Virus record (IMG/VR): IMGVR_UViG_3300044858_002688
Location: 1-25,450 of that record
Strand: one strand, 5' to 3'
DNA: 25,450 bases
Source of the DNA: a virus
Made by a program: the position numbers and the translations under genes. The number at the start of each line of letters is the position of its first letter. Position 1 is the stretch's first letter. Under the pieces are notes generated by a model. That model ran no database searches and was not told the origin of the DNA. It was given only the letters and a program-made list of their open reading frames with translations. Of this stretch, positions 2,372 to 19,073 are shown piece after piece.

Positions 2372-2789
2372 TGATTCTCCTAATGATATCGCTGCTTGAT
2401 ATTCCCCGAGTGTATGGAACGTATAGCATTTGTATTGATCGTTCGTCTAGCCATTCCTGGCTTATACCTAGCTGGCCAAGGAGTGAGTTGCCGGTCCAGT
2501 CATCTCCGTGAGCTATGTAGATCACTTTGACTCCGGTAAGCGAGTCAATGGTTTTCCCTGTGTCCTCGTCACCGATATTCACAACGACCTTGTCGACCCA
2601 GCGGCAGGCTTGTGCTGCAGCCATCCGCTCAGCGATGTTCATGATCGGCTTTCTCTTGTACCGCTCTGCGAACTCGTCTGAGTTCAGCGATACAATGACT
2701 CTGCCGTAGTCCCTGCACTTTCGTAGGAACTCTGCGTGTCCGTGGTGGAACATGTCAAACGTTCCGCCGACGTACACCCATGTCATCAT
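2277..2789 (-). CDS. Cytidylyltransferase-like nucleotidyltransferase
   Basis: This belongs to the HxGH nucleotidyltransferase superfamily, closest to glycerol-3-phosphate or ethanolamine-phosphate cytidylyltransferases. Visible motifs are VGGTFDMFHHGH (residues 7-18, with the HxGH signature), an RKP segment, and ISSSDIIRRI near residue 135, the usual C-terminal nucleotide-binding signature. It would activate a phosphorylated alcohol or sugar with CTP or a similar nucleotide. The recognisable domain ends at ISSSDIIRRI; the last 30 or so residues are a Cys/Asn-rich tail read in another frame over the start of the glycosyltransferase gene. The start is one of two adjacent ATGs overlapping the previous stop. 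Substrate is unknown. Confidence 0.85.
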   Translation of the reverse strand: MMTWVYVGGTFDMFHHGHAEFLRKCRDYGRVIVSLNSDEFAERYKRKPIMNIAERMAAAQACRWVDKVVVNIGDEDTGKTIDSLTGVKVIYIAHGDDWTGNSLLGQLGISQEWLDERSIQMLYVPYTRGISSSDIIRRISGYVHSNCNCSCGRGSNATYDQLPSGPDQGP

Positions 2790-3274
2790 TCAGTAAGTAG
2801 TTCCGGCTCGACTGGAGTTGCTATTCCCTCTACCACGATTGATCCGCCGAGTATTGATGCCAGGGTCATGGCCAGATCCCTATCTGCGCCCTTCTCCTGT
2901 CGCCTGTCCAGAATTTCCTGTGCCCTTAGCCCCTCCGAGAGGGTGGGCAGAAGCTCGCCGTTTTCTATTGCGGAAAACGTGTAGTCCCGGACTAGGGAGG
3001 CAAGATCGGTTCCGGAGGTTGGCTTCAAAGTTTTCTTTCGCTTCTCCATTACCTTTATCGCAGCGGCCTTAGCCTGCTCGAAGTCTGTGGTTAGATGCTC
3101 TCTCCGATGCTTGCCAAGGGTGATCCGGCTGACGTACTGGCCCTCAGACTCTAGCCAGCTGCTAATCCTAGTATCAGGCATCCCCTCTTTCATTCTTTTG
3201 CCGATCATTTCGGCAAAGGGGCTCCTGCAAACGTGGCAACCGGTGAGTATCGGAGCCAGATCTATGGACTTCAC
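2786..3274 (-). CDS. Unidentified protein with Cys pair and possible helix-turn-helix
   Basis: I do not recognise this 162-residue protein with certainty. The N-terminus has a CHVC pair followed by a helical stretch (SPFAEMIGKRMKEG), then RISSWLESEGQYVS and TLGKHRREHL, which read like a helix-turn-helix of the kind found in small terminases and phage regulators. The rest is helical and charged. No small terminase is otherwise visible, and it lies four genes upstream of terL, so a TerS role is possible but only inferred. The GTG start abuts the holin stop (TAAGTG) and lacks a clear Shine-Dalgarno site, suggesting reinitiation after the holin. Confidence 0.6.
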   Translation of the reverse strand: MKSIDLAPILTGCHVCRSPFAEMIGKRMKEGMPDTRISSWLESEGQYVSRITLGKHRREHLTTDFEQAKAAAIKVMEKRKKTLKPTSGTDLASLVRDYTFSAIENGELLPTLSEGLRAQEILDRRQEKGADRDLAMTLASILGGSIVVEGIATPVEPELLTE

Positions 3275-12510: not shown

Positions 12511-12831
12511 ATGAACAAGGTAGAGTTGGTCGGAACGATTCAGGACAAGACCATGAGTGGTAAGCAGTCGTATGTCTGGAATCCTGCCATTGAAGGGAAG
12601 CCAGCGCTCTTCGTGTTCAACATGGAGATCAGCAATGGTCGCAATGTTGAGCGGGTACGATGCGTTGCGCGTGGTATCAATGCAGAACTGCTCAATGCAG
12701 ATCTCGGACGCTACGCACACATTCACGGTTCAGTAGGTACGGTGAAGTTGGGCATGAACTACCAACAGCAGGTGTTCGTGTCCAGCATTCAGGGTCGAGC
12801 CGAGCAGGCTGAGTCCCACCCGTCAGCATAA
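12511..12831 (+). CDS. Single-stranded DNA-binding protein-like (OB fold)
   Basis: The 106-residue protein begins MNKVELVGTIQDK, the first OB-fold strand of SSB proteins, followed by LFVFNMEIS, ERVRCVARGINAELL and LGRYAHIHGSVGTVK, which match the later strands. It is shorter than host SSB (about 110 residues of OB fold plus a tail) and lacks the acidic C-terminal tip, ending in HPSA instead. It would coat single-stranded DNA during replication and recombination. The ATG follows AGGAGG. It is the first gene of the rightward operon and so probably the earliest or best expressed one. The frame is open upstream but only this ATG has a ribosome site. Confidence 0.75.
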   Translation: MNKVELVGTIQDKTMSGKQSYVWNPAIEGKPALFVFNMEISNGRNVERVRCVARGINAELLNADLGRYAHIHGSVGTVKLGMNYQQQVFVSSIQGRAEQAESHPSA

Positions 12832-12884: not shown

Positions 12885-13064
12885 ATGAAGCGCGAGACTG
12901 AGTACGATGCAAGCCTTGACCCAGCATGGGAGCAGGAGTCGTACTATCACGCAAGCAACCGGCAAGGCTGCTGGGAATGCGGTAGAGTACTAGCGGCAAG
13001 CGCAACAGCCGGCGAACTCTGCAGCCGTTGTGAGGCAGAGAAAGTAGAAGAGGTGTACTCATGA
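12885..13064 (+). CDS. 59-residue protein with two CxxC pairs
   Basis: Encodes a 59-residue protein starting MKRETEYDASLDPAWEQESY, with CWEC near residue 29 and CSRC near residue 46, a likely zinc ribbon or knuckle. The ends are acidic. The start has AAGGAGG six bases upstream, and the stop overlaps the next ATG (ATGA). The family is not recognised. It opens a run of small Cys-pair proteins in this operon. Confidence 0.78.
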   Translation: MKRETEYDASLDPAWEQESYYHASNRQGCWECGRVLAASATAGELCSRCEAEKVEEVYS

Positions 13065-13246
13065 AGGAAACGGTATTCGTATACGCACTAGCAATCGGAG
13101 CAGGCATTGCCCGAGGAATAGCACTAAACAGCATAATCGACGGCTTCATCACAGGTATGGCAGTACTGGGCATAATCGTGTTCACATTCCATATCTGTGA
13201 CACAATCAACGAAGAACTAAGAGCGCACTACACAAAGAGGGGATAA
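13061..13246 (+). CDS. Small membrane protein
   Basis: A 61-residue protein with two hydrophobic segments (VFVYALAIGAGIARGIAL and FITGMAVLGIIVFTFHIC) and a charged C-terminus (NEELRAHYTKRG). It is probably an inner-membrane protein with two helices. It overlaps genes on both sides (ATGA before, TAATG after), so it is translated with them. The function is unknown; early phage membrane peptides often alter host permeability or block superinfection, but nothing here proves that. Confidence 0.72.
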   Translation: MKETVFVYALAIGAGIARGIALNSIIDGFITGMAVLGIIVFTFHICDTINEELRAHYTKRG

Positions 13247-13395
13247 TGAAAACCCGGCAAGCTTACAAATGCGTATACAAGACATGCAGGCGGCTAGGCT
13301 ATATAATCGTCAAAACACATCAATTCGATGTGAGAAAGGGGCTGCATATGTGCAAGAACCACGCAGCGGCTAACGGGCAGTTGATCCTATGGTAG
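13246..13395 (+). CDS. 49-residue basic protein with Cys/His pairs
   Basis: Encodes a 49-residue protein starting MKTRQAYKCVYKTCRRLGYI and later LHMCKNHAAA. The cysteines at residues 9 and 14 and the CxxH near residue 36 could hold one zinc ion. The start is coupled to the previous stop (TAATG), and its own stop overlaps the next ATG by seven bases. It is basic, so nucleic-acid binding is possible. Not recognised. Confidence 0.7.
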   Translation: MKTRQAYKCVYKTCRRLGYIIVKTHQFDVRKGLHMCKNHAAANGQLILW

Positions 13396-13631
13396 AAATC
13401 AGGAGCAAATGCTGGAGGTGCCAAGACAACTTCAAGACAAGCAAAATGGTGCTATGGCATGGATACTGGGGAGCAGTAAAAGGGAGTTACTGCCAAATGT
13501 GCTGGGAAATCTGCATGTCAATGTGGGTAATGACCCAAAACGACAGAGAGGGTTGCCTGGCACTAGTAGATGACATCATCAAGTCAGTAAGAAAGGAGTT
13601 GCAATATGTATCGAACACCGAAACCGTTTAA
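13389..13631 (+). CDS. 80-residue protein with two CxxC pairs
   Basis: The sequence has CWRC at residues 8-11 and CQMC at about 35-38, a plausible zinc ribbon, with aromatic and Met residues between (VLWHGYWGAVKGSY) and a helical C-terminus. It starts inside the end of the previous gene and overlaps the next by 26 bases, where the next gene's AGGAG lies. The family is not recognised. The pair spacing is that of a treble-clef or ribbon. Confidence 0.72.
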   Translation: MVEIRSKCWRCQDNFKTSKMVLWHGYWGAVKGSYCQMCWEICMSMWVMTQNDREGCLALVDDIIKSVRKELQYVSNTETV

Positions 13632-13881
13632 CTGGCAAGCCATGGTAAACATGCAGCCAGAAAAACACGGATGCCCAGGGCCATGCGAAGCATGCCACCC
13701 AACATACGAAAAGCGCATCCGGGTAGTACAACACCAAGATGTGTACCGCAGCGCAATCGTATATGCTCTAAGCAATAGCATTGCGGCAAAAGAAGTAGAA
13801 GAACGCGAACATGAACTAGACTGGGAATACGAGGAGATCGGATGGGAAACAGTGGAGGCATGCAGTGAACCACTATCATAA
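13606..13881 (+). CDS. 91-residue unidentified protein
   Basis: The N-terminal part (MYRTPKPFNWQAMVNM) is followed by HGCPGPCEACHP, a tight cluster of three cysteines and a histidine that could bind a metal. The C-terminal half is an acidic helix (AAKEVEEREHELDWEYEEI). The ATG has AGGAG seven bases upstream. It overlaps the previous gene by 26 bases and the next by 17. The family is not recognised; context suggests an early host-directed protein. Confidence 0.72.
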   Translation: MYRTPKPFNWQAMVNMQPEKHGCPGPCEACHPTYEKRIRVVQHQDVYRSAIVYALSNSIAAKEVEEREHELDWEYEEIGWETVEACSEPLS

Positions 13882-14146
13882 CGAAATCAGCATCGCTGCG
13901 TGCATACCAGACCATGCCGGTACATTCGAATCGGCAAGAGATGCAGTGGAAGACATAAAAGCAATCATAGACGACGAAGACTTCACAATGAAAGTCTGGG
14001 CAGATCCATTTATGGCAGTGTTTAAATGGCCAGGAAAACCATCAGCAATGAACTGCTATGCGTGGGAATGCGCAGAGTTAGAATGTGCAGAGCCAATGAA
14101 AGGGGGTGATGAGAATGGCAAGAAAAAGACTGATCCAGTGCGCTGA
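13865..14146 (+). CDS. 93-residue acidic unidentified protein
   Basis: A 93-residue protein beginning at a GTG behind GGAGG, inside the end of the previous gene. It has a helical stretch (FESARDAVEDIKAIID) and a strand-rich part (FTMKVWADPFMAVFKW), and near the end CYAWECAELEC, another group of cysteines, followed by a charged tail. The size and alternation suggest a small alpha/beta fold. Not recognised. Confidence 0.68.
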   Translation: MNHYHNEISIAACIPDHAGTFESARDAVEDIKAIIDDEDFTMKVWADPFMAVFKWPGKPSAMNCYAWECAELECAEPMKGGDENGKKKTDPVR

Positions 14147-14336
14147 TTGTACAGTGCGCTTCGATCCAGTCCAAACCGGGTTTTACTCGGAGGGTTTCGG
14201 ATACGGGCTATGCGACGAATGCGAATACGCACAGTCAATAGCATTGAGCAGTGTTCAGGACTTCAACCTGGACAGAACAGGAGAGACCAATGGATATTCA
14301 GAAATTGAAAGAACTTCTCGAATCAGCGAGGAGTAA
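14115..14336 (+). CDS. 73-residue protein with zinc-ribbon-like cysteines
   Basis: Encodes MARKRLIQCADC near the N-terminus and GYGLCDEC about 25 residues later, two CxxC pairs that look like a zinc ribbon, then a polar tail. I chose the ATG at 14115 because AAGGGGG lies eight bases before it; GTG at 14106 and ATG at 14109 are in the same frame. It overlaps the preceding gene by 32 bases and the following one by 47, an unusually long overlap at both ends. Confidence 0.68.
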   Translation: MARKRLIQCADCTVRFDPVQTGFYSEGFGYGLCDECEYAQSIALSSVQDFNLDRTGETNGYSEIERTSRISEE

Positions 14337-14736
14337 CTCATATACGGCAAGCAACTCTGCTGAAAACGCAGCATCGTACGCAAAAGATGCAGAGTCAGAA
14401 GCCAATGATCTATACTACGAACTAGACAAGATCGTTGACAATCTCGACGAACTGACTGGCTTCAATCCAGAAGTGCTGCGAGATCTAAGGCTAGTTCAAA
14501 AGAACTTACTCAACGCATCACAACTAGCCGGCAAAGAAATGGACAGAATCATCAATGGTGACGGAGTAGAAGAAGACAAAAGATGGTCATTCTTGAATGC
14601 CATTCTAAACAGAGTCTTCGAGTACAACATCGCAGGTGATTCGTTCGAAAAGTTCGATGAATCGTACGATATCTCGTACGACTTCGGCACAGGCGCGTAC
14701 ATCGTACAGCGCCAGAAGGAGGAGAACAATGGGTAA
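14290..14736 (+). CDS. 148-residue helical protein of unknown function
   Basis: The N-terminal 100 residues are predicted as coiled or bundled helices: QKLKELLESARSNSYTASN, AENAASYAKDAESEANDLYY, LDKIVDNLDELTGF, with Ala/Ser/Glu in heptad-like spacing. The C-terminus is strand-rich (FEKFDESYDISYDFGTGAYI). I selected the ATG at 14290, which follows AGGAGAG; the frame extends 13 codons further without a ribosome site. It overlaps the next gene by eight bases. No family is recognised. Confidence 0.72.
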   Translation: MDIQKLKELLESARSNSYTASNSAENAASYAKDAESEANDLYYELDKIVDNLDELTGFNPEVLRDLRLVQKNLLNASQLAGKEMDRIINGDGVEEDKRWSFLNAILNRVFEYNIAGDSFEKFDESYDISYDFGTGAYIVQRQKEENNG

Positions 14737-15160
14737 GACAATCAAGAGCAAGCTCAGGTGCGTACCGCCACGACTGGCAGATATCAAAGACATCAATGTA
14801 AACATGAGTGGTGAAGTTGATGTAGAGATCCTCAGCAATGCGTTCGAATCGGCAGTAGTCGAGATCGGACGACAGATGTCAAAGAGATACAACAACACAG
14901 ATCACCAAATGGCAACAGTTCGATTCGTTGGTGATCTGCACGAAGCAATCAAAGAACTCAAAAACTACACCGGCTGGGGTGCACGAACAAGGCTCGCAAC
15001 AGATGCAGGCTACAGCACGGGCAGTTGGGATGCAAACGATTGCGGATCAAACAATACAGACTTCGACGATCTCTACGAGAAAGCCGTAGTCACATTCGCA
15101 GTCAATCTCAACCGCACTGCCAAGGCAAAGCCGCAACTCAAGAAGTTGGGAGTCAAGTAA
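14729..15160 (+). CDS. 143-residue protein of unknown function
   Basis: Starts MGKTIKSKLRCVPPRLADIK after GGAGG. It has a strand-helix part (VDVEILSNAFESAVVEIG), then VRFVGDLHEAIKELKNYTG, and a C-terminus with YEKAVVTFAVNLN. The single-Cys start and Lys-rich ends give a basic protein. The frame is open about 30 codons upstream but overlaps the previous gene; the ATG with the ribosome site is preferred. No family recognised. It is followed by a very stable UUCG hairpin. Confidence 0.72.
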   Translation: MGKTIKSKLRCVPPRLADIKDINVNMSGEVDVEILSNAFESAVVEIGRQMSKRYNNTDHQMATVRFVGDLHEAIKELKNYTGWGARTRLATDAGYSTGSWDANDCGSNNTDFDDLYEKAVVTFAVNLNRTAKAKPQLKKLGVK

Positions 15161-15204: not shown

Positions 15205-15579
15205 ATGTGCGAAAAATACAACGGTTGGCATAACTACGAAACATGGAATATGAATCTATGGCTTACCAATGATTCAGGATTCTATGATATCGCAGAAGAA
15301 AGAATAGAAGAAATTGCCAAAGACGAGTCAATCAACGAGGGTTACTCAAACCTGGACAAAATGGATGTTACCTACAAGGTATCGCAGTGGCTAGAAGAAT
15401 ATGCAAATGCAATGTGGTTGGATGACTTCCAGTCATGCAACTTCAATCATTCCTATGGGCCACTAGGCGACATCGCAAACGCAGCGTGGAATGAAATCCA
15501 ATGGTACGACATCGCAGAGCACCTAGTGGATGACTGGCTGACAAACAATAAGGAGGTAGCAAATGCCGTTCTCGGATAA
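15205..15579 (+). CDS. DUF7249-like protein (GWHNYETW family)
   Basis: The 124-residue protein begins MCEKYNGWHNYETWNMNLWL, a hallmark of a large phage family (DUF7249-type: GW.NYETW...LW..N). The remainder is helical and acidic (AEERIEEIAKDESINEGYSN, VSQWLEEYANAMWLDDF, HLVDDWLTNNKEV). It is found in many unrelated phages and in some bacteria, but no biochemical role is known to me. The ATG at 15205 follows GGAGG; the open frame upstream lies over the previous gene. It overlaps the next gene by 17 bases. Confidence 0.82.
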   Translation: MCEKYNGWHNYETWNMNLWLTNDSGFYDIAEERIEEIAKDESINEGYSNLDKMDVTYKVSQWLEEYANAMWLDDFQSCNFNHSYGPLGDIANAAWNEIQWYDIAEHLVDDWLTNNKEVANAVLG

Positions 15580-16186
15580 GCCATTAGAATCCGGGCGCAA
15601 CGATGCGCACGGTATCGAATGGGCAGTATATCAAGATCTAGATGTAGATCCAGAGGATCACAAGGCGTTCACTATCATAGGCAGTAGAGGCACTGGCCGA
15701 CACATCAAGACAGATGTGACATGCGACTCAATGGACGAGTTCCAAGCAGAACTCGACTCCGGCAAGTATGTAATGTCATTGCCATTGTACATGCTAGCAC
15801 ATGGAGTAGTCCGTCTCAGCACTGGATCGTTCAGCGATCCATGGGACAGCGGTCAATGCGGCTTCGCTGCACTCACAAAAGAGCAGGCGCTAGATGTAAC
15901 CGACAAGGAAGATCTAGAGTCAATGCTCAGAAACGCAGTAGAAACATTCGACAGCGTAATCAATGGCAATGTAGTAGGCTATGTAATCACTCGCAAAGAC
16001 AAGTGCGCAGCATGCGAAAAAGAGTCGGAAACGCACTTAGACTCATGCTGGGGTTTCGTACTATCCGGCTGGGGTGGAATGGACGGCTTCCTAAAAGATG
16101 AGGTCTATCCGCAGGTAAACTATTGGGTTGATGAGTTAAGTCAACAAGAACACGCAACAGGAACAACAGTAAAATCAGATGACTAG
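15563..16186 (+). CDS. Conserved phage protein with PWDSGQ and DSCWGF motifs
   Basis: The 207-residue protein matches a widespread but uncharacterised family of phage and mobile-element proteins: LPLYMLAHGVVRLSTGSFSD, then PWDSGQCGFAALTKEQ, then VETFDSVINGNVVGYVI, and LDSCWGFVLSGWGG. These motifs occur in the expected order, with an insertion carrying CAAC (residues about 148-151) before the DSCWG motif. The N-terminal 60 residues look like an additional small domain. The ATG has GGAGG seven bases upstream. The function is unknown; its wide distribution suggests a general host-interaction role. Confidence 0.8.
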   Translation: MPFSDKPLESGRNDAHGIEWAVYQDLDVDPEDHKAFTIIGSRGTGRHIKTDVTCDSMDEFQAELDSGKYVMSLPLYMLAHGVVRLSTGSFSDPWDSGQCGFAALTKEQALDVTDKEDLESMLRNAVETFDSVINGNVVGYVITRKDKCAACEKESETHLDSCWGFVLSGWGGMDGFLKDEVYPQVNYWVDELSQQEHATGTTVKSDD

Positions 16187-16445: not shown

Positions 16446-16521
16446 TGGTGGGCCCGCCAGGATTCGAACCTGGGACCGCCGAGATATAAGCTCGGTGCTC
16501 TAACCGTTGAGCTACGGGCCC
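16446..16521 (-). tRNA. tRNA-Ile (anticodon UAU)
   Basis: A full cloverleaf of 76 bases: acceptor GGGCCCG with CGGGCCC, D arm GCTC...GAGC, anticodon stem CCGAG/CTCGG with loop CTTATAT (anticodon TAT), T arm CCAGG-TTCGAAT-CCTGG, discriminator A and an encoded CCA end. UAU reads AUA. In most bacteria AUA is read by a lysidine-modified CAU tRNA, so a UAU tRNA is unusual and would supplement a host poor in AUA decoding. The 5' ten bases overlap the 3' end of the upstream protein gene. Confidence 0.95.
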
Positions 16522-16873: not shown

Positions 16874-17164
16874 TTAATTTGCGAGCCTAAATGCTTCCTC
16901 GTTAACCTCGACCTTGCCGTCAGCTTGGACCTCGGCAAAAGCATGAAGACTCTTCATCAATGTGTTTACCATTGGCCGGTGATCCTTGCCAGCTTTGGCG
17001 AGCTTGGCCACCGCATCAGTGATCATCTCCATGTTCTCAAGGACAGCTTCGTAGCCTTCTTTGAATCCAATCGCATGAGCCTCCGGCATGATGTCCTTCT
17101 CAATCCTGGTGGCCATGCACTGGCATAGACCATGCTCGCAAGCTTCTAACTCGATCCTGATCAT
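16874..17164 (-). CDS. 96-residue helical unidentified protein
   Basis: Begins MIRIELEACEHGLCQCMATR with three cysteines close together, followed by helices (HAIGFKEGYEAVLENMEMI, DAVAKLAKAGKDHRPMVNTL). The start overlaps the dnaB stop (TAATG), and GAGGT lies eight bases upstream, so it is translated with the helicase. It is not a known DnaC-type loader: it lacks a nucleotide-binding motif. The function is unknown. Confidence 0.72.
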   Translation of the reverse strand: MIRIELEACEHGLCQCMATRIEKDIMPEAHAIGFKEGYEAVLENMEMITDAVAKLAKAGKDHRPMVNTLMKSLHAFAEVQADGKVEVNEEAFRLAN

Positions 17165-18453: not shown

Positions 18454-18596
18454 CAGCTACCTCGCTTCTTGCGGGGCTTGTAGCACTTAGGGCAGTAAAG
18501 CATTAGCCCGCCCGAATCATTCTTCATGAGCTCTAGAAGCCCATGCTTCTTGCCCACAGATGGGCAGTAAATCCAGAAATCCTGTACCTCATTCAT
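18453..18596 (-). CDS. 47-residue cysteine-rich KTR-like protein
   Basis: Encodes WIYCPSVGKKHGLLELMK and LMLYCPKCYKPRKKRG, which matches the cysteine-rich KTR pattern (WIYCPxCGxKTR ... LYCPKCK). The second CxxC is intact, but in the first the second Cys is replaced by Val (CPSV), so zinc may not be bound. The stop overlaps the dnaB ATG by one base (TGATG), suggesting coupling. The overlap with the upstream gene is eight bases. The function of the family is unknown. Confidence 0.72.
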   Translation of the reverse strand: MNEVQDFWIYCPSVGKKHGLLELMKNDSGGLMLYCPKCYKPRKKRGS

Positions 18597-18861
18597 CTTG
18601 GCCTCCATTGCACTCTCGATATACTACTCCACCCCAGATGCCGAAGTCATCGGCATAGGATGAGATGCAAGCCCACGACTCGCAATACAGGCAGTTTAAC
18701 GCATAAGTCTTGTTGTCGTCAACCACCAGTCTCAGGAACGTATGGCCGTTGTGCACTGCTCGCTCAACAGCCCAGTCTAGCATCTTGTGAACCTGAGGAA
18801 CATCCCAGTTGCCCCTGTAATAGCGGCCCTGGAACTGCTCCTTATTGTATGCCATATCCAT
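18589..18861 (-). CDS. 90-residue unidentified early protein
   Basis: The protein (MDMAYNKEQFQGRYYRGNWD...) has a helical first half (DVPQVHKMLDWAVERAVHNG) and a strand-rich second half with CLYCESWAC, then FGIWGGVVYREC. The ATG at 18861 follows AAAGGAGG at eight bases, so the 17 further codons upstream are rejected. Four cysteines in the C-terminal half may hold a metal. The family is not recognised. Confidence 0.72.
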   Translation of the reverse strand: MDMAYNKEQFQGRYYRGNWDVPQVHKMLDWAVERAVHNGHTFLRLVVDDNKTYALNCLYCESWACISSYADDFGIWGGVVYRECNGGQDE

Positions 18862-18908
18862 AGATGGCCTCCTTTCTATGGGCATACTAGCAGAGGACCC
18901 AGGGACCG

Positions 18909-19073
18909 TCAAGTCACCTGGGTCTGGTTGATCGACACCTCTGGGCGCTTCTTGCCGACTAGCTCCCAGTAGTCGATGCCATACTTGTCGCAGTAGTCCT
19001 TGAGGGACATACCCTGCTTGATGGCATCGCGCCGGAAGAACTCAGCTGCTGCGTCTTTGGGTTTCTTGTTCAT
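18909..19073 (-). CDS. 54-residue helical protein
   Basis: Encodes a 54-residue protein starting MNKKPKDAAAEFFRRDAIKQ, then GMSLKDYCDKYGIDYWELV, which reads like a small helix-turn-helix: two helices joined by a short turn, as in phage regulators of the MerR/excisionase size class. DNA binding is possible but unproven. The ATG follows AGGAAG closely. It overlaps the upstream gene by 32 bases. Confidence 0.65.
   Translation of the reverse strand: MNKKPKDAAAEFFRRDAIKQGMSLKDYCDKYGIDYWELVGKKRPEVSINQTQVT

Follow-up and report, generated by a model that had tools for sequence, protein, structure and literature searches.

A conserved operon of small putative zinc-finger proteins in uncultured tailed phages

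A run of seven small genes with paired cysteines (A to G, positions 12885-14336) lies in the DNA of an uncultured virus and raises the question of whether these overlapping frames are real genes, whether their cysteines form metal sites and what their products may do in infection. The window, that is, the whole stretch of DNA analysed here, has 25,450 nt and corresponds to positions 1-25,450 of the IMG/VR record IMGVR_UViG_3300044858_002688. Its genes were picked by us from the open reading frames (ORFs), giving 42 proteins in all. The terminase and SSB labels were assigned by eye, those of MazG, ERF and DUF7249 correspond to Pfam matches, and that of dnaB to a match to annotated helicases. 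The rightward genes relevant to this question are the following:

12511..12831, + strand: SSB-like gene, 106 aa, an ORF, taken here to open the rightward operon
12885..13064, + strand: gene A, 59 aa, C29-x2-C32-x13-C46-x2-C49 (CWEC/CSRC)
13061..13246, + strand: gene B, 61 aa, a small protein, hydrophobic and membrane-like, with one Cys and no Cys pair
13246..13395, + strand: gene C, 49 aa, C9-x4-C14 ... C36-x2-H39 (CKNH)
13389..13631, + strand: gene D, 80 aa, C8-x2-C11 ... C35-x2-C38 (CWRC/CQMC)
13606..13881, + strand: gene E, 91 aa, H21, C23-x3-C27-x2-C30-H31 and C86 (CPGPCEAC)
13865..14146, + strand: gene F, 93 aa, four Cys, no CxxC and no conserved metal site
14115..14336, + strand: gene G, 73 aa, C9-x2-C12 ... 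C33-x2-C36 (CADC/CDEC)
14290..14736, + strand: gene H, 148 aa, lacking Cys; identity to close relatives 71-91%, order kept
14729..15160, + strand: gene I, 143 aa; 49-85% identical in close relatives, order kept
15205..15579, + strand: gene J, DUF7249 protein (HNYETW), matching PF23907 above the family cut-off (E 2.8e-10)
15563..16186, + strand: gene K, 207 aa, a conserved CxxC and one more conserved Cys

Genes A to G are consecutive rightward frames overlapping by 4, 1, 7, 26, 17 and 32 nt, and they are followed in the same direction by H, I, J and K, with an overlap of 47 nt between G and H. The last codons of F cover the start of G as well as its likely ribosome-binding site. The cassette belongs to a rightward block. 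The leftward blocks are separate from it, one containing the terminase-like gene and another dnaB, MazG and ERF; a tRNA-Ile (TAT) gene (16446-16521, - strand) was found between the two converging gene blocks.

The cassette was rich in cysteine, which made up 26 of its 506 residues (5.1%) as against 69 of 6863 (1.0%) in the remaining window proteins that were included (Fisher P 5e-10). It contained seven CxxC motifs, a number reached in 0/5000 proteome-wide shuffles (mean 0.08), and shuffling each protein's own residues gave a mean of 1.1 (P 0.0002). The count of CxxC-bearing proteins was only mildly unusual (4/7 in the cassette vs 10/42 overall, P 0.04), because other genes of the window carry the motif too. 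The sequence-only reading from which this work started had claimed that five of the seven overlapping genes bear Cys metal-ligand pairs, and we found the frames, the overlaps and the motifs to be as described, with an enrichment above chance. It had also placed two further Cys-pair proteins around dnaB and mazG, and both Cys proteins, which lie beside dnaB, were real and conserved in close relatives: m2 (16874-17164, - strand) carries CEHGLCxC, and m4 (18589-18912, - strand) a conserved CxYC, its third Cys being replaced by Ser in the contig L002. Further small Cys-pair proteins were seen in the contigs L005 (7090-7452) and L030 (246-449 and 3472-3612), located ahead of the cassette in both contigs and after K in L030.

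Relatives of the cassette were found in seven IMG/VR contigs. Scanning IMG/VR with D yielded six of them (D identity 79-95%), and a profile scan with E added one distant contig, referred to as L030 or, when the same contig was fetched again, as L036, in which D was 46% identical. Profiles of D, G and C detected no IMG/VR contig beyond the first six, and the single-sequence scan with A found none, though L005 carries a diverged relative of A. Neither tblastn searches of annotated phages nor sequence searches of the PDB, both with A, D, E and G, returned relatives or anything credible or significant, respectively; a scan of GTDB genomes with E gave just one 9-residue chance match, and the cassette proteins scanned had no significant match in Pfam, PHROGs, NCBIfam or PADLOC. 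The earlier statement that no homologues are recognised was thus right for named families, but IMG/VR contains relatives. A tblastn search of annotated phages with the terminase-like gene recognised by eye (20-1519, - strand) found no match, so this phage group looks remote from described phages.

The order C-D-E-F-G-H-I-J-K recurred in the relatives up to the limits of each contig. The SSB-like gene, for which no Pfam or PHROG match was obtained, was 35% identical in L005 and likewise preceded the cassette there, and K was 81-96% identical in close relatives and 59% in L036. Weak relatives of K were also observed in ten known phage records, with hosts including Moorella, Erythrobacter, Sphingobium, Bacillus and Rhodobacter, and the N-terminal part of J matched many Synechococcus phages.

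Paired Cys/His ligands, four per protein, were conserved throughout the seven or eight sequences compared for C, D, E and G, and in the two compared for A. In C the four positions were invariant in seven sequences, and in L030 the first Cys was shifted by one with the other three aligned; in D they were likewise invariant in seven sequences, L030 having His in place of C35, a swap that leaves metal binding possible. H21, the four Cys and H31 of E, and the four ligand Cys of G (51% identity in L030), were invariant in seven sequences including L030. Since four Cys and two His are conserved in E, the set that would hold the metal in this protein is ambiguous. At identities of 35-57%, L030 kept complete ligands in E and G, three Cys plus His in D and three columns in C. 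Gene A was 35% identical in L005 with its four Cys kept; this was its single relative, and A was absent from the matches in L003, L004, L006, L007 and L036, while an apparent tail of an A gene was seen by eye at the edge of L002. Gene B was 75-77% identical in L002 and L005 by BLAST, its single Cys (C46) was not conserved, and a similar-looking hydrophobic ORF was recognised by eye at the same position in L003, L004, L006 and L007.

Non-conserved cysteines had been named beforehand as one of two observations that would speak against the reading. Such positions exist, because F retains only C69 of its four Cys in L030 (C13, C64 and C74 are lost) and the non-ligand C42 and C56 of D vary among relatives, but the ligand Cys themselves are conserved. 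The metal-ligand reading is thus well supported for C, D, E and G, whose ligands are kept while spare Cys are lost; the pattern points to metal sites in these four proteins, and for A it depends on one relative. From the type of motif, the metal is likely to be zinc.

Selection was estimated as dN/dS by the Nei-Gojobori method on codon alignments, where ranges correspond to two sequence sets. Median values were 0.13 for B, 0.14-0.15 for C, 0.13-0.21 for D, 0.09 for E (the lowest of the cassette), 0.31-0.32 for F and 0.18 for G, and if anything they are too high, because overlapping frames lower dS. The demand that the frames be maintained by purifying selection was borne out for those with several relatives (median dN/dS 0.09-0.32). 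The members of the cassette are real genes in a conserved order; the proposed ligand positions are kept in relatives, and the frames with several relatives evolve under purifying selection.

Within the same sequence set, dnaB had a pN of 0.030 and a pS of 0.52, and C to G had pN of 0.105-0.22 and pS of 0.42-0.62, so that, with synonymous divergence comparable, the proteins C to G have changed 3.5-7 times as fast as dnaB while staying constrained. Such a rate is as expected for non-core genes and fits an accessory or host-facing role; however, it does not single out genes of this kind, because J (pN 0.28) and m2 (0.25), outside the cassette, change even faster. The region also recombines, as L007 resembles L003 in C, E and F (93-98% identical) but L002 in G (95% identical). 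In L002 (about 1130-1680) and L007 (about 2500-3040), F and G were separated by an inserted RadC/JAB gene (PF04002, E 1e-35 for the L007 copy), and the codons at the end of this gene match the tail of F, which holds the likely ribosome-binding site of G. A role in nucleic-acid processing has been proposed for the RadC domain (PMC5512222). Fast change and the RadC insertion would suit an accessory region for host interaction, and equally well an ordinary weaker constraint.

These data bear on the proposal of the sequence-only reading that the genes form an early cassette in which each mini-protein inhibits a host RNA polymerase, nuclease or defence protein, a possibility that we hold only tentatively. 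Consistent with it are the small size and overlap of the genes, their separation from the structural block, a protein evolution that outpaces dnaB at similar pS, the RadC/JAB gene of two relatives and the coming and going of genes like A. Host RNA polymerase is known to be bound by small C4 zinc proteins, TraR and lambda Orf73 among them (PMC9239242). On the other hand, constraint on E, D and G is fairly strong (dN/dS 0.09-0.21), with no obvious arms race, and neither a known inhibitor family nor a PADLOC model was matched significantly, the sole defence-family match being a weak one of gene A to a Cas10 model (E 0.033). Early timing received no support from a promoter scan, in which no sigma-70-like site was found ahead of the operon and the total number of sites was not above that of shuffles. 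Growth inhibition on overexpression would be weak evidence for takeover, because in mycobacteriophage Girr about 28% of genes have this effect (PMC11075535).

The TraR/DksA proteins and lambda Orf73 resemble the cassette products in being very small, encoded by phages or plasmids and built on a C4 zinc finger (PMC9239242), and gene A has, by eye, an acidic D..DPA stretch ahead of its finger. However, the C4 finger of TraR/DksA has the form CxxC-17-CxxC (PMC9239242), and the loop has 13 residues in A and 10 in its L005 relative. The DxxDxA motif reads DASLDPA in A (DxxxDxA), which is one residue too long, and KALDPA in L005, where only DPA is kept. The Pfam DksA/TraR finger gave no match to A at E up to 1.

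One or more of the proteins might instead regulate the phage itself, switching on its late genes or its translation in the manner of Ogr/Delta or Com, which we regard as unlikely. Com, from phage Mu, is a small protein with a zinc finger, and the best PHROG match of gene A was a weak, sub-threshold one to the translational regulator PHROG 6417 (E 0.014); no mom-like gene was recognised alongside. Ogr, which activates late promoters, has a zinc finger of the arrangement CX2CX22CX4C (PMC3931495). Like the cassette products, the Ogr/Delta proteins of P2-like phages are small and have four zinc ligands, and their loop of about 20 residues has its counterpart in D and G. The spacings of C, D and G are similar to that of Ogr but not the same, being CX4CX21CX2H, CX2CX23CX2C and CX2CX20CX2C, respectively. 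No Ogr or Com family match rose above threshold, Pfam yielded no match to Ogr/Delta, and five separate fingers in one operon exceed the need of a single regulator.

Gene D could also be a diverged endonuclease VII (His-Me finger) in a cassette for DNA processing. Its layout, CxxC ... G-x-V-x-G-x2-CxxC, resembles the zinc core of this family (PF02945), its alignment to T4 gp49 covers the four zinc ligands and the G-x-V-x-G stretch, three relatives of D had sub-threshold PF02945 matches (best E 0.04), and C of L003 weakly matched the zinc loop of a His-Me endonuclease (E 0.016). Nevertheless, the best PF02945 score was 14.3 bits, compared with a Pfam gathering cut-off of 23.6, and 8/150 column shuffles in which the ligands were fixed equalled the score of the D profile. 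In an alignment with nine endonuclease VII sequences the catalytic Asp-His and Asn were absent from D, and the His of D in the G-x-V-x-G stretch is Leu in L030. A PF02945 search across viral records gave no match. With the catalytic residues missing and a score not clearly above ligand-fixed shuffles, we rejected this identity for D and consider the DNA-processing explanation of the cassette highly improbable.

In profile comparisons D was not similar to G, nor C to D, so that common descent of these pairs was not supported, and the AlphaFold2 models of D and G (mean pLDDT 54.5 and 48.1, respectively) were too poor to use. Because these pairs show no kinship, no fold was obtained and the TraR features are missed, the cassette is read here as several separate zinc mini-proteins. 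A stronger version, in which these are several new and unrelated families, each directed against a different host enzyme or defence system within a conserved takeover island that swaps genes, seems to us rather doubtful.

The explanation we prefer, to which we give a probability of roughly one half, is that a group of uncultured tailed phages shares a conserved operon encoding small zinc-finger mini-proteins, which may be adaptors in transcription or nucleic-acid metabolism. In this reading each of A, C, D, E and G would fold round one zinc ion held by four Cys/His ligands and would be a compact protein- or nucleic-acid-binding adaptor working in infection rather than a part of the virion. Their most likely targets would lie in transcription or nucleic-acid metabolism, as with TraR/Orf73, Ogr and Com in other phages.

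For C, D, E and G the alignments now provide ligand positions tested by conservation, which makes these proteins candidates for expression and metal assays. For now they exemplify a common situation, that of small phage Cys-pair proteins with no assigned function; if any one of them proved to bind a host enzyme, it would be a new family of small inhibitors.
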